This document shows positions 10,624 to 32,865 of a stretch of 42,117 nt of DNA, piece by piece. Origin of the DNA: Jiulongibacter sp. Lineage in GTDB: Bacteria; Bacteroidota; Bacteroidia; Cytophagales; Spirosomataceae. Position numbers and translations under genes: made by a program. Each line of letters begins with the position of its first letter. Within the stretch, counting starts at the first letter, position 1. The DNA lies in NCBI GenBank assembly GCA_024645245.1, contig JAHEBN010000014.1, positions 1 to 42,117 on the forward strand, given 5' to 3'. The notes beneath the pieces were generated by a model, which was not told the DNA's origin, did no database searches, and worked only from the letters and a program-made list of their open reading frames with translations.

Positions 10624-12114
10624 ATGAAAATTGTTTATTACTTATTGATCATTTTTCCATGTATAGCTTCTGCTCAGCTGGTACAGGCGGATACCAACAT
10701 GGTATGCAAGGGTCAGGCAGTAAGATTATTTATTAACCCTAAACTATTTTCACCAACTGATTTTTGTCTGGATTACGAAGGAGTGCGGGATGGTTTGCAT
10801 TATTATTCCAGTTGCAATCAGATCAGTTTTGACGATGCATTTGCATTTGCAAGACTTATGAAAGGTAACCTGGTAACCGTAAATGATGATGCCAAAAACA
10901 GATTTGTAGCCAGACTTAAACCCGCTTATATTAAATGGTTGGGTTTTTTTCAGGACCCAGGGGCCGAAAGTTTCAATGATCCACCCGATCCGGCTTCAGG
11001 ATTTGTGTGGATGAGTGGGGCGAAGGCTGGATATACCCGTTGGGCTAGTGCACAACCAGATAATCTGGAAAATGCGAATCCGGGGAAAAATGTAATTTTA
11101 GGTTGTACAATAGTTACCCCACCAGAATGGTGCGATGTAGATAAAAATGATGGACATAAATATATTGCCATAATTGAGACTACTCAAAGTACAATTCCTG
11201 TTTTTCCTCAAGTGGAGGTTCTATGGGAAACAGGCTCTACTGCTCGAGAGATAATTGTAAATCCTACAAAATCAAAATATTATAAAGTGCAGGTTATTAT
11301 CGATGGTCAGGTGTATCAGGATAGTATTAAAATTCAAGTTCCTGAAGCAAAAGCTGATTTTTCAAAGTTTGGCGGGTGCGGAAATCCATTTTATTCCAGA
11401 CCTGTTCTTACTAGTAATTTACCTACTAATGATCTGAATATTTCCTGGATTTTTGGGGATGCCAATAACAGCGGCAAAGATTTCAAGCCGGATTTACAGA
11501 CTTACAATTCCGGAGATATAATTAGTAAGGTCAAAGTTGAAAGCATTTCTTGTGGCGAAATAGTACTCGACTCCAGCACAACATTATTGCTGGAATACCC
11601 ATTTGATACTGCACAGTTAATTCAAAAGGAATTAAAATTAAATGAAATTTTTACTTTAAACCCTCTCAATCAAAAAGAGGGCTTCATTTATAATTGGGTT
11701 CCACCCACAGGATTAAATAATCCCAATATTGCAGAGCCTCAATTTATGGCACTGGATCCGGTGGAATATATTTTGAAAATTGATGATGGTTTCGGATGTA
11801 AAACGGAGGAGGTTTTTCAGTTTACGATAGACCCCAATATTATTATTTATTTACCAAATGCCTTCACACCTAATAGTGATAATGAAAACGATCTGTTTAA
11901 AATTATAACCAATACGGGGTTTTACGGACAATTGAGGCAGTTTACCATATTCAATCGATGGTCACAAATTGTTTTTGACTCTGATAAAATTTGGGAATGG
12001 GATGGTAAAATCAAAGGTAAAGATGCTCCTCTCGGAATCTACCATTATGCACTCCGGTATGAGATAGAGAAAGTGCCTTATGTTAAAACAGGTTCTGTTT
12101 TTTTGATAAGGTAA
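10624..12114 (+). CDS. Secreted C-type-lectin-like protein with T9SS type B sorting domain
   Basis: The 496-residue protein has a signal peptide (residues 1-17, MKIVYYLLIIFPCIASA). A C-type lectin-like domain at about 48-188 begins with LHYYSSCNQISFDDAFAFA, includes KNRFVARLKPAYIKWLGF and TRWASAQPDN, and closes with PPEWCDVDKNDGHKYIAIIE. An Ig/PKD-like middle region follows. The last 85 residues (LPNAFTPNSDNENDLFKI, IFNRWSQIVF, WEWDGKIKGKDAPLGIYHYA) are the gliding-motility-associated CHU_C type sorting domain used by type IX secretion. It is predicted to be exported through the outer membrane and attached or released, with glycan binding as a plausible role. It converges with mnmE, 6 bp apart. 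Confidence 0.88.
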   Translation: MKIVYYLLIIFPCIASAQLVQADTNMVCKGQAVRLFINPKLFSPTDFCLDYEGVRDGLHYYSSCNQISFDDAFAFARLMKGNLVTVNDDAKNRFVARLKPAYIKWLGFFQDPGAESFNDPPDPASGFVWMSGAKAGYTRWASAQPDNLENANPGKNVILGCTIVTPPEWCDVDKNDGHKYIAIIETTQSTIPVFPQVEVLWETGSTAREIIVNPTKSKYYKVQVIIDGQVYQDSIKIQVPEAKADFSKFGGCGNPFYSRPVLTSNLPTNDLNISWIFGDANNSGKDFKPDLQTYNSGDIISKVKVESISCGEIVLDSSTTLLLEYPFDTAQLIQKELKLNEIFTLNPLNQKEGFIYNWVPPTGLNNPNIAEPQFMALDPVEYILKIDDGFGCKTEEVFQFTIDPNIIIYLPNAFTPNSDNENDLFKIITNTGFYGQLRQFTIFNRWSQIVFDSDKIWEWDGKIKGKDAPLGIYHYALRYEIEKVPYVKTGSVFLIR

Positions 12115-29158: not shown

Positions 29159-30001
29159 CTATTTGGTGGCTTTCGGCGAAATTTCAAAAATTTCTCTTTG
29201 TTCGTTTGTAAAAACTAAATGCGAATTGTCTTCGTATGCTATGGCTTCTGTTTGTCTTCTGCGGGTTTTTAAACAACCCTTTGGTTTTGAAAAGTTTATC
29301 TGAGTGCCATCAATTTCAAAGAAATATGCTTTGCCATATGATAACAAAACGAATTCTTTCTGATCAGGTCTTATGTCGGCAGCAGTAACCGCGGTGGTCA
29401 TTGGCATGCTATCCACTAATTTTGCTGTTTGTTTTCCGGCCTGATCTGAAAGCTCGTATAGTAAAGTCACCTTGTTTTTTTTATCCCATATTTTAGTAAA
29501 CAGATATAATTTGTTGTTAAACCATAAGAAGGCTTCACAATCAATTTTATTATTCTTAATGCCGTCATTCTTAATACTTTCATATTCAAAATTTATTACC
29601 TCTGTTTTATTATTATGGTATTTATAAATAGAAAGGTCGTTTCTTTTTCCTGAATTATTTCCAAAATCACCCGCATATATATTGCCTGATATATCTTTTG
29701 CAAGATCTTCCCAATCAATATTATTTGCATTTTTTATTATTAAAGTATCATAGATAAATCCTTTTTTGTCGATCATATAGAGTTCAGGAGATCCTCCACT
29801 ATCATTGTGTGTCCAGTAATAACCATTTTGCCATGCCTTGATCAATCCGGAGCTCTCATTTATACATACAGGCATTTTGCCGGTTTTTTTTATTTCCATT
29901 TCAGAATTTACGGAATTAAAACCTTCCTTAGCATCCGGTGTACAACTACATACTGCCAGTTTTAGTCCGAAAAGAAACATGTATAATTTATAAATAATCA
30001 T
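29159..30001 (-). CDS. Predicted lipoprotein of unknown function
   Basis: The 280-residue protein has a hydrophobic N-terminus with a possible lipobox (LAVCSC; Cys at about 20). The region ESSGLIKAWQNGYYWTHNDS, with GGSPELYMIDKKG and NIDWEDLAKDISGNIYAGDF, resembles beta-propeller-like secreted proteins of Bacteroidota. A repeat of strand-turn units continues to the C-terminus (KLYLFTKIWDKK, LVFTNEQREIFEI). No catalytic motif is evident. It lies 66 bp upstream of the response-regulator ATG and on the same strand, with its own region of 142 bp to the divergent permease. Confidence 0.65.
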   Translation of the reverse strand: MIIYKLYMFLFGLKLAVCSCTPDAKEGFNSVNSEMEIKKTGKMPVCINESSGLIKAWQNGYYWTHNDSGGSPELYMIDKKGFIYDTLIIKNANNIDWEDLAKDISGNIYAGDFGNNSGKRNDLSIYKYHNNKTEVINFEYESIKNDGIKNNKIDCEAFLWFNNKLYLFTKIWDKKNKVTLLYELSDQAGKQTAKLVDSMPMTTAVTAADIRPDQKEFVLLSYGKAYFFEIDGTQINFSKPKGCLKTRRRQTEAIAYEDNSHLVFTNEQREIFEISPKATK

Positions 30002-30093
30002 CGTGGTTTATTGTAATTTGAAAATAGGATTGACATGTTAAAATGATCGATAAACAGTATTTTAATCCGTTTATACTTTAAAAATAGTTATAA

Positions 30094-30125
30094 TCTGAAT
30101 TAAAAGCACGGATTAGTTATTTTTG
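30094..30125 (+). promoter_or_regulatory. Predicted promoter of the AI-2E family gene
   Basis: TATTTTTG (30118-30125) is a perfect -7 element and TCTG (30094-30097) sits 20 bases upstream as a one-mismatch -33. The predicted leader to ATG 30144 is very short. Confidence 0.5.
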
Positions 30126-30143
30126 AATTAAAACTCAATAGGT

Positions 30144-31196
30144 ATGGTTAGCAAAAAGCATGGTAATATTATAGAATTGGCCGCAGCAGCCTTGTTAATA
30201 GTCGTAATAATATTTGGTTTGTATATCCTCAAAGATGTACTTATTCCACTTTTAATATCTGGTTTAATTGCCATCCTGGTTCTACCAATTGTGAGTTTTT
30301 TGGAATCGAAAAAATTTCCACGGGTATTAGCCATTACACTTACCATTTTATTGGTATTTACTATTTTAACTTTAGTAATTATTCTTTTTGTAAATCAAAT
30401 CGCAAGTTTGGATAACGTGTGGCCCTTGATGATCGATAAGGGGGAAGAATGGATTAAACTGGGTAGAATTTTTATTACAGAAAATTTACATGTTCAACAA
30501 GCTGAGCAACTTACCGAAGGGAAAAAATATTTGAGTGAATTACTGAAAAACAGTTCTTCTTTCTTTTCTAATGCTTTAAGTACCACTACCGGCTTTTTAG
30601 CCAATTTCTCCTTAATTCCCTTATATATTTTTTTAATGCTTTTATATCGCGACTTTCTAAGAGAGTTTCTGTATCGGGCATTTTACTCAAAATCGAGGTA
30701 TCACATAGATTTGGTTGTGCATAAAATAGAAAAGGTGGTACAGAATTATTTGTCGGGCTTATTACTCGTAATCCTGATAATCGGTATTTTAAACAGCACA
30801 GCTCTTCTTGTTTTGGGTATTCCAAATGCCATTTTCTTCGGTTTTTTTGCAGCCTTACTTGTTTTATTACCCTATATCGGTGTTGCAATCGGTTCATTAT
30901 TACCAATAATTATGGCACTAATTACCAAAGATTCGGCTTGGTATGCGGTGGGTGTGGCGGGCTCTTTTGCCGTTGTTCAGTTTTTGGAAGGTAATTTTAT
31001 CACGCCATACATAGTTGGCTCAAAGGTTAGTATTAATTCCCTGGCGGCTATTCTTGCACTTATTCTTTTCGGAAACCTATGGGGTATTTCGGGTTTGGTG
31101 CTGGCTCTGCCTCTTACGGCTATTATTAAAGTTATTTTTGACTCTAGCAAACGATTGAAACCTTTTGGGTATTTGTTGGGTGGGGTGGAAGAGTAG
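30144..31196 (+). CDS. AI-2E family transporter (YdiK/TqsA-type permease)
   Basis: The 350-residue inner-membrane protein has about eight membrane segments. The family block AILVLPIVSFLESKKFPRVL sits near the N-terminus, and the C-terminal part has LPYIGVAIGSLLPIIMALI, VVQFLEGNFITPYIVGSKVS and LWGISGLVLALPLTAIIKV, typical of AI-2E permeases. Members export a range of solutes; transport of autoinducer-2 cannot be claimed. The ATG at 30144 begins MVSKKHGNIIELAAA. It converges with the M23-type gene across a periodic repeat. Confidence 0.92.
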   Translation: MVSKKHGNIIELAAAALLIVVIIFGLYILKDVLIPLLISGLIAILVLPIVSFLESKKFPRVLAITLTILLVFTILTLVIILFVNQIASLDNVWPLMIDKGEEWIKLGRIFITENLHVQQAEQLTEGKKYLSELLKNSSSFFSNALSTTTGFLANFSLIPLYIFLMLLYRDFLREFLYRAFYSKSRYHIDLVVHKIEKVVQNYLSGLLLVILIIGILNSTALLVLGIPNAIFFGFFAALLVLLPYIGVAIGSLLPIIMALITKDSAWYAVGVAGSFAVVQFLEGNFITPYIVGSKVSINSLAAILALILFGNLWGISGLVLALPLTAIIKVIFDSSKRLKPFGYLLGGVEE

Positions 31197-31202
31197 GTTT
31201 TT

Positions 31203-31370
31203 GTTGGAAAGTTGTCAAGTTTTAGAGTTGTTGAGTTTTTGGGTTGGAAGGTTGGAAAGTTTTTTAGTTGTAGAGTTTTTTTGTTTGAAAGTTGTAAGGA
31301 TATAAGGTTGGTAAGTTGTCAAGTTATTGAGTTATCAAGATATCGGGTTTTTTGGTTGTCGAGTTTTTAG
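31203..31370. repeat. Degenerate tandem repeat with exact 8-bp period (21 units)
   Basis: From 31203, every 8 bases begins a unit of the form GTTnnnRR (examples GTTGGAAA, GTTGTCAA, GTTTTAGA, GTTGTTGA, GTTGGAAG). Twenty-one units fit end to end with no insertion or deletion: 19 begin GTT and two begin GAT (31299 and 31339). The last positions are mostly A or G. The array fills nearly all of the space between the convergent AI-2E permease and M23-type genes. Confidence 0.85.
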
Positions 31371-31389
31371 GGTAAGTTGCTTTGTTTTT

Positions 31390-32019
31390 TTATAAATTCA
31401 GGAAATCGTAGGGGTTTAGGCAAATGGATTGATAAAATTTCAGATCATCTTCTGCACACACACCGGGGAAATCTCCTTTTTTTTCGAGCATTGTGTTCAT
31501 CACCTGAAAATGAAGATGTGGTGGCCAATTTCCGTTTTCGGGGAATGGGCCGATTTGCGCAAAATTTTCACCTGCAAGTATTGCTTTCCCTTTGTAAATG
31601 TTTTGTAGAGAAGTGGCAGTAAGGTGTCCAAACAGATAGAATATTTCCGAATTTATCGACTTTAGAATAATGGTTGGTCCATAATCTCCTGGATTATTAT
31701 TGTTTTGAAAGCTATGGACAAGGCAGTTTTCAGGTGCAAAAAGCGGGGTACTGGCCTCTGCCCAGATATCAACACCCAAATGAATATTTCTGGATTTTCC
31801 AGCTTGAAAGTGATCTTTGGACTGATAAATGATTCGGTTTTCGAGCCAACCACCAATTCCTGTTTTTACTTTCGATTTGGCAAGTTCATGGAAAATATAG
31901 GTATTGAATGTTTCCACATTTTCTGCAAGTTGAGGACTGATGTCTTTGTTTTTTGCTGAAAAATCCAACCAAATAAATTGATCTTTTTTGAAATCGAATG
32001 GTGTAATATTTGCAAACAT
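31390..32019 (-). CDS. M23-type metallopeptidase-like protein, cytoplasmic form
   Basis: The 209-residue protein has the LytM/M23 zinc motifs: HLGVDIWAEASTPLFAP (His and Asp ligands), FYLFGHLTATSLQN and the HLHF box in GNWPPHLHFQVMNT. There is no signal peptide. Stand-alone LytM peptidases are normally exported, so a cytoplasmic or unconventional location is odd. The same module occurs fused to aminotransferase/phosphotransferase proteins in some organisms. ATG 32019 (MFANITPFDFKKDQ) is chosen. It lies 1 bp after the stop of the DinB-like gene; the longer frame opens inside that gene. Confidence 0.78.
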   Translation of the reverse strand: MFANITPFDFKKDQFIWLDFSAKNKDISPQLAENVETFNTYIFHELAKSKVKTGIGGWLENRIIYQSKDHFQAGKSRNIHLGVDIWAEASTPLFAPENCLVHSFQNNNNPGDYGPTIILKSINSEIFYLFGHLTATSLQNIYKGKAILAGENFAQIGPFPENGNWPPHLHFQVMNTMLEKKGDFPGVCAEDDLKFYQSICLNPYDFLNL

Positions 32020-32020
32020 C

Positions 32021-32596
32021 TTACTCTTTTTTAACCCCCAGTAATACATCCACCCCCGCTGGTAAAGGATTGCCGGAAGACCGCCGGAAACTCACCACCT
32101 GACCCACATGCCAGATTGCATCTGCAATAGGGCCATTTATCAGATTCCAGAAAGGTATGTCGCTTTTGGTATCTCCAAATTGTAATTTTAAGTTTTCAGG
32201 ATGGACATCTTCGTTCTTTAGTAAATCAGAAGCCTGTCTTATTTGAAGCAATGTTTTATTTCGTAGTTCTTCATAACTAAGCTCTGCTTTTTTACTATTT
32301 CCCGTCACTTTTTTGCCTGCCATGGTATTTAAAATTACCTCAGTAAGACCATCGATGTGCTCCAGCGTTTCGCGGGTGGTTCTGGCATCTGTGTTGGGTT
32401 TGAATGCAAGGTCAGGCTCATTTAAATCGTAACTTGCCCAATAGTATCGAAACCCGAGCCCATCGATCATTCTTGCCACTGTGGTATTGGCGTTGTAAAC
32501 TGCCGGGGCTTCTGGAATATTATAAAAGTAGGGTTTGTCTTGGGCTGAAATGTAAGTAGTGTATAACAGAAATAGTAATAAAATTAGCTTTGGCAT
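32021..32596 (-). CDS. Exported DinB-family protein
   Basis: The 191-residue protein has a signal peptide (about 1-18, ending TYISAQ). The four-helix DinB-like fold is suggested by NTTVARMIDGLGFRYYWASY, ETLEHIDGLTEVILNTM and the closing IADAIWHVGQVVSFRRSSGN, whose histidines could bind a metal. DinB-like proteins include thiol-dependent transferases and unknown proteins. The gene is followed at 1 bp by the M23-type gene, so the two are translationally coupled. Confidence 0.75.
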   Translation of the reverse strand: MPKLILLLFLLYTTYISAQDKPYFYNIPEAPAVYNANTTVARMIDGLGFRYYWASYDLNEPDLAFKPNTDARTTRETLEHIDGLTEVILNTMAGKKVTGNSKKAELSYEELRNKTLLQIRQASDLLKNEDVHPENLKLQFGDTKSDIPFWNLINGPIADAIWHVGQVVSFRRSSGNPLPAGVDVLLGVKKE

Positions 32597-32664
32597 TTAA
32601 AAGTTTTTTTTCAAAAATAGCTATTTTTTTTTTATTAGAATAAAAGTTTGTGTGGATTAGCGGT

Positions 32665-32865
32665 TCATAATTTGTGTTTACTTTGTATTATTATAACCAT
32701 CCCATTTTTATTATCCACATATATAATTATCAAATCGTCTGGTCGTAACTTGTCCCTTTCTTTTTTAGAGGCTATTTCTACTTCATACACTTTAAAAAGT
32801 ACATTATCTAGACCTTCTAATTTTTTGGTTTCTTCTTTCTTGTGAGATCGGTGGATATTCGATAT
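32665..32865 (-). pseudogene. Open in-frame tail behind the BlaR1-like gene, no start codon
   Basis: Directly after the TAA stop of the BlaR1-like gene, 66 codons stay open in the same frame to a TGA at 32665-32667. They encode a charged, protein-like sequence containing KKEETKKLEGLDNVLFKVYE and RPDDLIIIYVDNKNGMVII. There is no ATG in the first 50 codons. The opposite strand is also open here but has the composition of a shadow frame. It could be a remnant of a lost gene, or a C-terminal extension cut off by the TAA. Homology was not recognised. Confidence 0.4.

Follow-up and report, generated by a model that had tools for sequence, protein, structure and literature searches.

Two published families of intergenic 7-bp repeats come closest to the array reported here, and a literature search for octamer arrays of this kind found nothing closer. 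Rehm 2015 (PMC4692102) describes, in Xanthomonas and Nostoc, GGGNATC and GGGGAYT heptamers capable of forming G-quadruplexes, which lie upstream of genes when antisense and downstream of them when sense; of the two ends of the G-strand, the 5′ end is the nearer to an ORF in xanthomonads (28 nt versus 160 nt on average), and convergent pairs occur as inverted repeats (70 and 75 cases). That paper also reports that transcripts start or stop more often in the quadruplex-forming group, and identifies no function. MacGregor 2015 (PMC4679880) describes TAACTGA direct repeats in Beggiatoaceae, Cyanobacteria and some Bacteroidetes, proposes a role in translation, and states that related heptamers are rarely repeated; one example is Flexibacter litoralis, where a start codon follows 12 of 14 sets, all in forward orientation, and one further set lies reversed directly after a stop codon. 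The GTAG/CGTC-tagged REP palindromes (PMC3733652), which have been suggested to act in termination and in mRNA stability, are small dispersed repeats of 20–40 bp, and the LSSR of prokaryotes (Mrazek 2007, as cited in PMC4679880) are tandem repeats of short units found above chance, with slippage as their proposed cause. Tandem short units above chance are what the present array has in common with LSSR, and slippage is proposed for both. LSSR reportedly consist of identical or near-identical copies, so that a degenerate array of the present kind would be missed.

The array lies in a window of 42,117 bp (the whole stretch of DNA analysed) from Jiulongibacter sp. assembly GCA_024645245.1, hereafter the own genome. 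Like the heptamers of Rehm 2015, it is intergenic, has short units, and has the 5′ end of its G-strand nearer an ORF; those heptamers have 7-bp units with G-tracts, whereas the window array has 8-bp GTT units, is far more degenerate, is unpaired, and contains GGG only twice (31241 and 31345). No GGGNATC-type 7-bp unit with four G-tracts is found in it. The reverse strand of TAACTGA is TCAGTTA, a 7-bp GTT word, and its polarity in Flexibacter litoralis is as in the present arrays; it is a single fixed 7-bp word, whereas the window units are 8 bp and use other words. The REP repeats are palindromic, unlike the window array, which has no stable fold. The window array misses the unit definitions of the repeats in both heptamer papers and obeys their placement rule, and we file it as a degenerate octamer array without G-tracts among the intergenic repeats that are polar with respect to gene edges. 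The original remark that no named element has this form is half right: the literature search gave no description of such octamers, but their placement rule is already on record for 7-bp arrays (PMC4692102, PMC4679880).

The array (31203–31370, plus strand) occupies the gap between two convergent genes, as originally reported. To its left is a gene for an AI-2E family transporter (PF01594, Pfam E 2.9e-59; 30144–31196, plus strand), and to its right is a gene with an M23-type peptidase domain (PF01551, Pfam E 1.5e-9; 31390–32049, minus strand). The array starts 6 bp past the transporter stop codon, which is the gene edge from which its GTT strand points away, and ends 19 bp short of the stop codon of the peptidase gene. 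A short partial unit, GTTTTT (31197–31202, plus strand), lies between the transporter stop codon and the first full unit, and the spacer on the other side (31371–31389) contains no inverted AAC arm. Elsewhere in the window, the gene at 10624–12114 encodes a T9SS type B sorting domain, which points to Bacteroidota.

There are exactly 21 in-phase 8-bp units with zero indels over 168 bp, 19 starting with GTT and two with GAT (31299 and 31339), in full agreement with the initial description; 19 of the 20 GTT trinucleotides are in a single phase. The plus strand is G/T-rich and almost free of C, as had been noted (T75 G50 A38 C5). Positions 1–3 of the unit are G21, T19 A2 and T21, positions 4–6 are G10 T7 A4, T16 G5 and A8 T8 C5, and positions 7–8 are A11 G7 T3 and A13 G7 T1, such that the array forms a single GTT arm of units with GTT or GAT, three variable bases, and mostly two closing purines. 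Autocorrelation at 8 bp is 0.619, compared to 0.336 ± 0.037 for dinucleotide shuffles; with all periods between 4 and 20 considered, not one of the 5000 shuffles is as high. This confirms the proposed 8-bp periodicity and excludes chance or composition as the source of the array. At lags of 8, 16, 24 and 32 the values are 0.619, 0.625, 0.597 and 0.566, with the remaining lags from 1 to 31 between 0.236 and 0.407, and every one of the top 40 scoring 168-bp stretches across the window overlaps the array. It thus has constant-length tandem units beyond chance, as in SSR and LSSR, and its mean pairwise unit identity of 0.618 is short of the near-identity of LSSR. A coding repeat was rejected, as no ORF of at least 80 aa overlaps the array, and none of at least 60 aa in a further check.

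TRF (minimum score 30) reports a 40-bp unit with 2.3 copies at 31203–31294 together with four shorter rows of 8 or 16 bp, and the 40-bp super-repeat was discarded because it is not significant under shuffled unit order (maximum over lags p = 0.67). Neighbouring units within the window array are no more similar than in shuffled order (p 0.49 at lag 1, and again p 0.67 for the maximum over lags), and slippage has therefore left no trace in this array. The variance in conservation between unit columns is reached by only six of 3534 neutral runs matched for identity, and the sum of the three best columns by 19 of 3534. In the neutral simulation an array grows as blocks are duplicated and substitutions fall uniformly, and under this simple model, on which the conservation result depends, GTT is conserved beyond neutral expectation in the window array.

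Similar arrays are present in both the own genome and its relatives, as anticipated. Four exact GTTnnnRR units give 31 overlapping matches on 11 contigs of the own genome, five of them inside the window, versus none for the reversed control, and five units with up to three mismatches give 120 matches versus 16 for the reversed control. Two of these arrays (L034 and L040) combine 7-mers such as GTTCAAG with 8-mers, and strict phase is therefore a trait of the window array and not of the class. The original suggestion of selection for phase accordingly fares in two ways: GTT is kept above the neutral model, and the strict phase is not general. Some own-genome arrays adjoin further periodic words, among them CTTCGTGCTTCGTA and TTGAACCTTGAAC. 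We note several periodic words within the same gaps at L033, L034 and L038–L040 (CTTCGTGCTTCGTA, TTGAACCTTGAAC, GGGAATAGGCAATAG), and contig C29 begins inside a multi-word tract, so such tracts may break the assembly.

When 15 arrays of the own genome are pooled, the interiors of neighbouring units are more similar than in shuffles at lag 1 (0.503 versus 0.466, p 0.004) and at lag 2 (0.534 versus 0.467, 0 of 2000 shuffles), with none at lags 3 to 5; the result is unchanged when the window array is removed. Neighbour-unit similarity extends to a set of 95 arrays from other contigs (0 of 500 shuffles), and in these sister arrays it points to local copying of units. Exact units are common to own-genome arrays at 0.223, compared to 0.028 with other genomes; we rejected these common words as proof of copying between loci because they mostly reflect column composition (0.185 ± 0.027; 80 of 1000 as high).

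Beyond the own genome, a five-unit exact array is present in 10 of 58 other genomes of relatives, and a scan of genome contigs gave at least 116 array loci. Among the matches listed, 79 loci have Bacteroidota titles, the names being judged by general knowledge, and other sources include Chloroflexi, Cyanobacteria, Lentisphaerae and Gammaproteobacteria. Some relatives score higher for the reversed control than for the GTT pattern (e.g. G006, 67+32 versus 14+6), which makes GTTnnnRR one of several word families. The expectation that the arrays favour convergent gene ends was not borne out, with 11 of 85 arrays from many genomes lying between convergent genes (of 137 arrays, 25 overlapping an ORF call and 27 without one or both neighbours were left out); the convergent background, 14 of 104 gaps, comes from own-genome stretches alone. 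Two side observations concern other loci. In Pontibacter (L072, L123 and L143) a common motif close to AATCCTGATTCWGACAA occurs in either orientation downstream of arrays, and in G115 (L323, L327 and L328) several gaps each use a 7–8-bp word of their own and carry matching arms in inverted orientation close to the gene edge on either side, as judged by eye.

The arrays tend towards one arrangement relative to genes, with the 5′ end of the G-rich strand close to a gene edge and the strand pointing into the gap. Among array-selected loci, including 68 viral contigs that entered this count only, 204 of 278 arrays are polar in this sense, and by gap type these are 73/102 and 77/97 tandem, 31/43 convergent and 23/36 divergent; these loci overlap in places (L272 is the window array again) and are related, and the p value is thus too good. 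In contiguous stretches of three relatives, chosen on account of arrays noticed earlier in their genomes, 93 arrays are non-coding, 50 of them were scored and 38 are polar (11/17, 19/22 and 8/11; p 0.0003), or 36 of 47 without one stretch picked for a known array. Polarity is significant alone in one of the three (G115), and by gap type it is 20/25 in tandem, 11/14 in convergent (p 0.057) and 7/11 in divergent gaps, being weak between divergent genes in both this and the array-selected set. Own-genome stretches, which are partly array-chosen, give 22 of 26. Polarity is also evident in arrays without GGG (30/39 in the three relatives, 84/113 on array-selected contigs). The gene edge is a stop codon in 34 and a start codon in 26 of 60 polar cases in four genomes (the relatives and the own genome), and a stop codon in 63 of 123 polar arrays on contigs. 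Gene edges are from a greedy longest-ORF caller without start-site modelling and the start-codon distances are approximate; arrays were dropped for coding overlap, fewer than two neighbours, a distance difference below 20 bp, or a low G/C skew (<4 bases for the count of 278 and <3 bases for the relatives, own-genome and no-GGG counts). The window array itself, with its G-strand 5′ end 6 bp from an ORF and its 3′ end 19 bp from one, falls below the 20-bp margin and is a weak case of polarity because it fills its gap.

Pairs of neighbouring arrays on opposite strands are head-to-head without exception (37 of 37). The ratio of head-to-head to tail-to-tail pairs is 26:0 in G145, in stretches chosen around matches, 6:0 in G115, 1:0 in G124, 4:0 in the own genome and 0:0 in G033. 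A gene-free search of 296 genomes of the phylum with two patterns of nearly equal information gave 22 head-to-head matches at about ten places in five genomes, and no tail-to-tail matches in the same genomes.

The best explanation, to which we give a probability of roughly 55%, treats the window array as a single arm belonging to a wide class of 7–9-bp tandem arrays between genes, which gain and lose whole units; this arm would be kept in a GTT...RR frame. The arrays would lengthen and shorten most simply by in-register replication slippage, and the G-rich strand, read 5′ to 3′, runs off the nearest gene edge into the gap. Substitutions accumulate, but GTT and the closing purines are kept, such that the tract holds its 8-bp frame. 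At many loci there are two arms head-to-head, some pairing into a hairpin; in the window the transporter-side arm stands alone, filling the convergent gap with neither strand folding, and would be either old and saturated or have lost its partner. Any effect of this arm on the two genes would probably be weak. Whole-unit slippage would account for units of constant length, for the resemblance between neighbouring units and for the differences in array length; it does not explain either the retention of GTT or the leading G-rich strand.

The length differences are seen at the orthologous transporter gene, whose end was read in eight genomes of another genus of the same family. In five of the eight the transporter gene faces one common convergent gene, which is not the peptidase gene found in the window, and the gaps between the two are 3 bp (G070), 69 bp (G139), 93 bp (G115), 98 bp (G095) and 157 bp (G143); array length thus varies between species at a fixed gene end. 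The three longest gaps have GTT-type left arms and AAC-type right arms, and in G143 and G095 the right arm is almost letter-identical and the left arms are unequal in copy number (by eye). In other genomes of that genus a different neighbour follows, and in four (G026, G083, G106 and G123) an ordinary-looking hairpin replaces the arms. At L295–L298 (G124, G084, G030 and G071) the transporter gene is followed by a different G-rich and then a C-rich stretch, in gaps of 109, 69, 62 and 62 bp respectively.

The hairpins with GTT and AAC arms in these orthologous gaps (z −2.84 and −4.65) raise a different possibility, that the window array is what remains of a hairpin element after loss of its second arm, perhaps in a rearrangement joining the peptidase and transporter genes. 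Folding is common among related loci, with 28 of 63 array-bearing gaps giving z below −2 (30 shuffles each) and the strongest hairpins at z −18 (L124) and −13 (L145). Paired arms are most numerous in G145, a Pseudobacter sp. MAG, which has 246 four-unit matches in its whole genome versus none for the reversed control. In 292 kb of it chosen around matches there are 26 paired arms (L373–L392 and L343–L372) forming dispersed hairpins of about 90 bp, with arms mostly of four GTTnAnAn units and a centre of 24–27 nt in 24 of the 26 pairs. Variable positions of the arms agree at 0.72 within an element and 0.58 between elements. Covariation in an alignment of 11 of these elements is mixed, however: cells changed on both sides (17 versus 9.7 ± 2.6 shuffled, 2/500) and the covariation score (0.133 versus 0.090, 2/500) are high, whereas pairs with a change on both sides (8 versus 6.3, 89/500) and pair types (19 versus 17, 96/500) are not unusual. 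Also against a remnant, the second arm has left no trace in 31371–31389, and within the own genome three gaps fold with z of −0.01 (the whole window gap), −0.75 and +2.0. Furthermore, the two arms of own-genome pairs at L032 and L036 differ in words, and terminal inverted repeats of a single element were rejected for the own genome because the arms of one gap differ in word (both by eye). A head-to-head pair is present in the own genome at C78 and none in the window gap, which lacks an AAC arm and with it the convergent inverted-repeat pairing of Rehm 2015. On balance we think it unlikely that the window array is such a remnant.

Several further features of the paired loci are of interest in themselves. 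Very long intergenic hairpins with octamer arms are present at L124:4835–5109, L145:4750–4905, L085:736–877 and L138:3425–3534, and the L145 arms mirror each other apart from one extra unit in one of them. Rfam gave no family at its thresholds for the G145 hairpin loci tried. Convergent enrichment and avoidance of divergent gaps by the G145 hairpins are suggestive only (Fisher p 0.063 and 0.079, respectively), and unpaired G145 arrays have no clear polarity (4/7).

The RNA read from the array bears on how transcription might end in this gap. An ordinary hairpin and an intrinsic terminator, with a G+C-rich stem followed by a T run, are both excluded: folding of the array is no better than shuffles on either strand (z 0.03 and 0.02) and no terminator-like sites are found in 31100–31500, in keeping with the original remark that a normal terminator is absent. 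Rfam gave no matches at gathering score in the window interval 29703–32734 (L014) or at five other loci. Rho loading sites are C-rich, G-poor, unstructured RNA, and a read-through transcript of the peptidase gene would carry just such a strand (A75 C50 T38 G5 over 168 nt), with AAC every 8 nt and a minimum free energy, across 140 nt, of −0.7 kcal/mol; the own genome has a rho gene (652.7 bits, above the cut-off). Judged on composition, a Rho-dependent end for the minus-strand peptidase gene is possible. The stronger proposal, that the array is a Rho-dependent terminator or insulator stopping that transcript before it runs antisense into the transporter gene, is rather doubtful. It would serve only one of the two window genes, and it fails as a rule for the class, because the sense strand is G-rich after the stop-codon edges (63/123, and 34/60 in the other set).

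The preferred reading, an arm of a slippage-prone array class, still requires a cause for polarity, and here our guess is a Rho-based transcription filter. C-rich, ribosome-free sense RNA after a stop codon would load Rho and G-rich RNA would not, and a C-rich arm beside a start codon may be short enough to do no harm. Under such a filter the transporter transcript would be indifferent to the array, and the peptidase transcript would meet a Rho-loading stretch; a Rho filter alone does not account for polarity between convergent genes. Polarity is found without G-tracts, with many words, and at start and stop edges alike, and the rule therefore needs another cause. A more ambitious interpretation, which we hold only very tentatively and consider quite unlikely to be correct, is that there is a placement law across unrelated phyla, with G-rich strands leading off gene edges and lying head-to-head, made or kept by a dedicated process. 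This process would be either a repeat-adding enzyme extending broken or nicked 3′ ends or the Rho-based orientation filter, and G-quadruplexes, the earlier suspect, would not be needed.

The conservation of GTT could instead reflect a phased array of binding sites, with a protein that recognizes GTT at 8-bp intervals and nucleates along the tract. The retention of GTT above neutral expectation in the window is consistent with this, as is the finding that positions 1, 2, 3, 5 and 7 are invariant or nearly so in 219 G145 units. However, the pattern used to collect the G145 units fixes GTT and the closing purines beforehand, so only position 5 and partly position 7 are informative; own-genome arrays mix 7- and 8-mers, relatives use different words, and 8 bp does not equal the helical repeat of DNA. 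We regard a binding array as improbable. Least probable of all is an end-healing scar, in which a repeat-adding polymerase or reverse transcriptase lengthened broken ends in the gap before these were joined like fused telomeres, an origin that would make head-to-head G-strands automatic (37:0) and fits both the polarity at start and stop edges and the different words of the arms in a single gap, but not the largely mirror-image arms of G145 and L145, which independent extension would not be expected to give, nor the local copying of units in sister arrays.

Intergenic arrays of 7–8-bp units are usually taken for microsatellites, and in two groups for G-quadruplex repeats. The polarity of their strands relative to gene edges bears on how bacterial transcription is ended or insulated in gaps without ordinary terminators.
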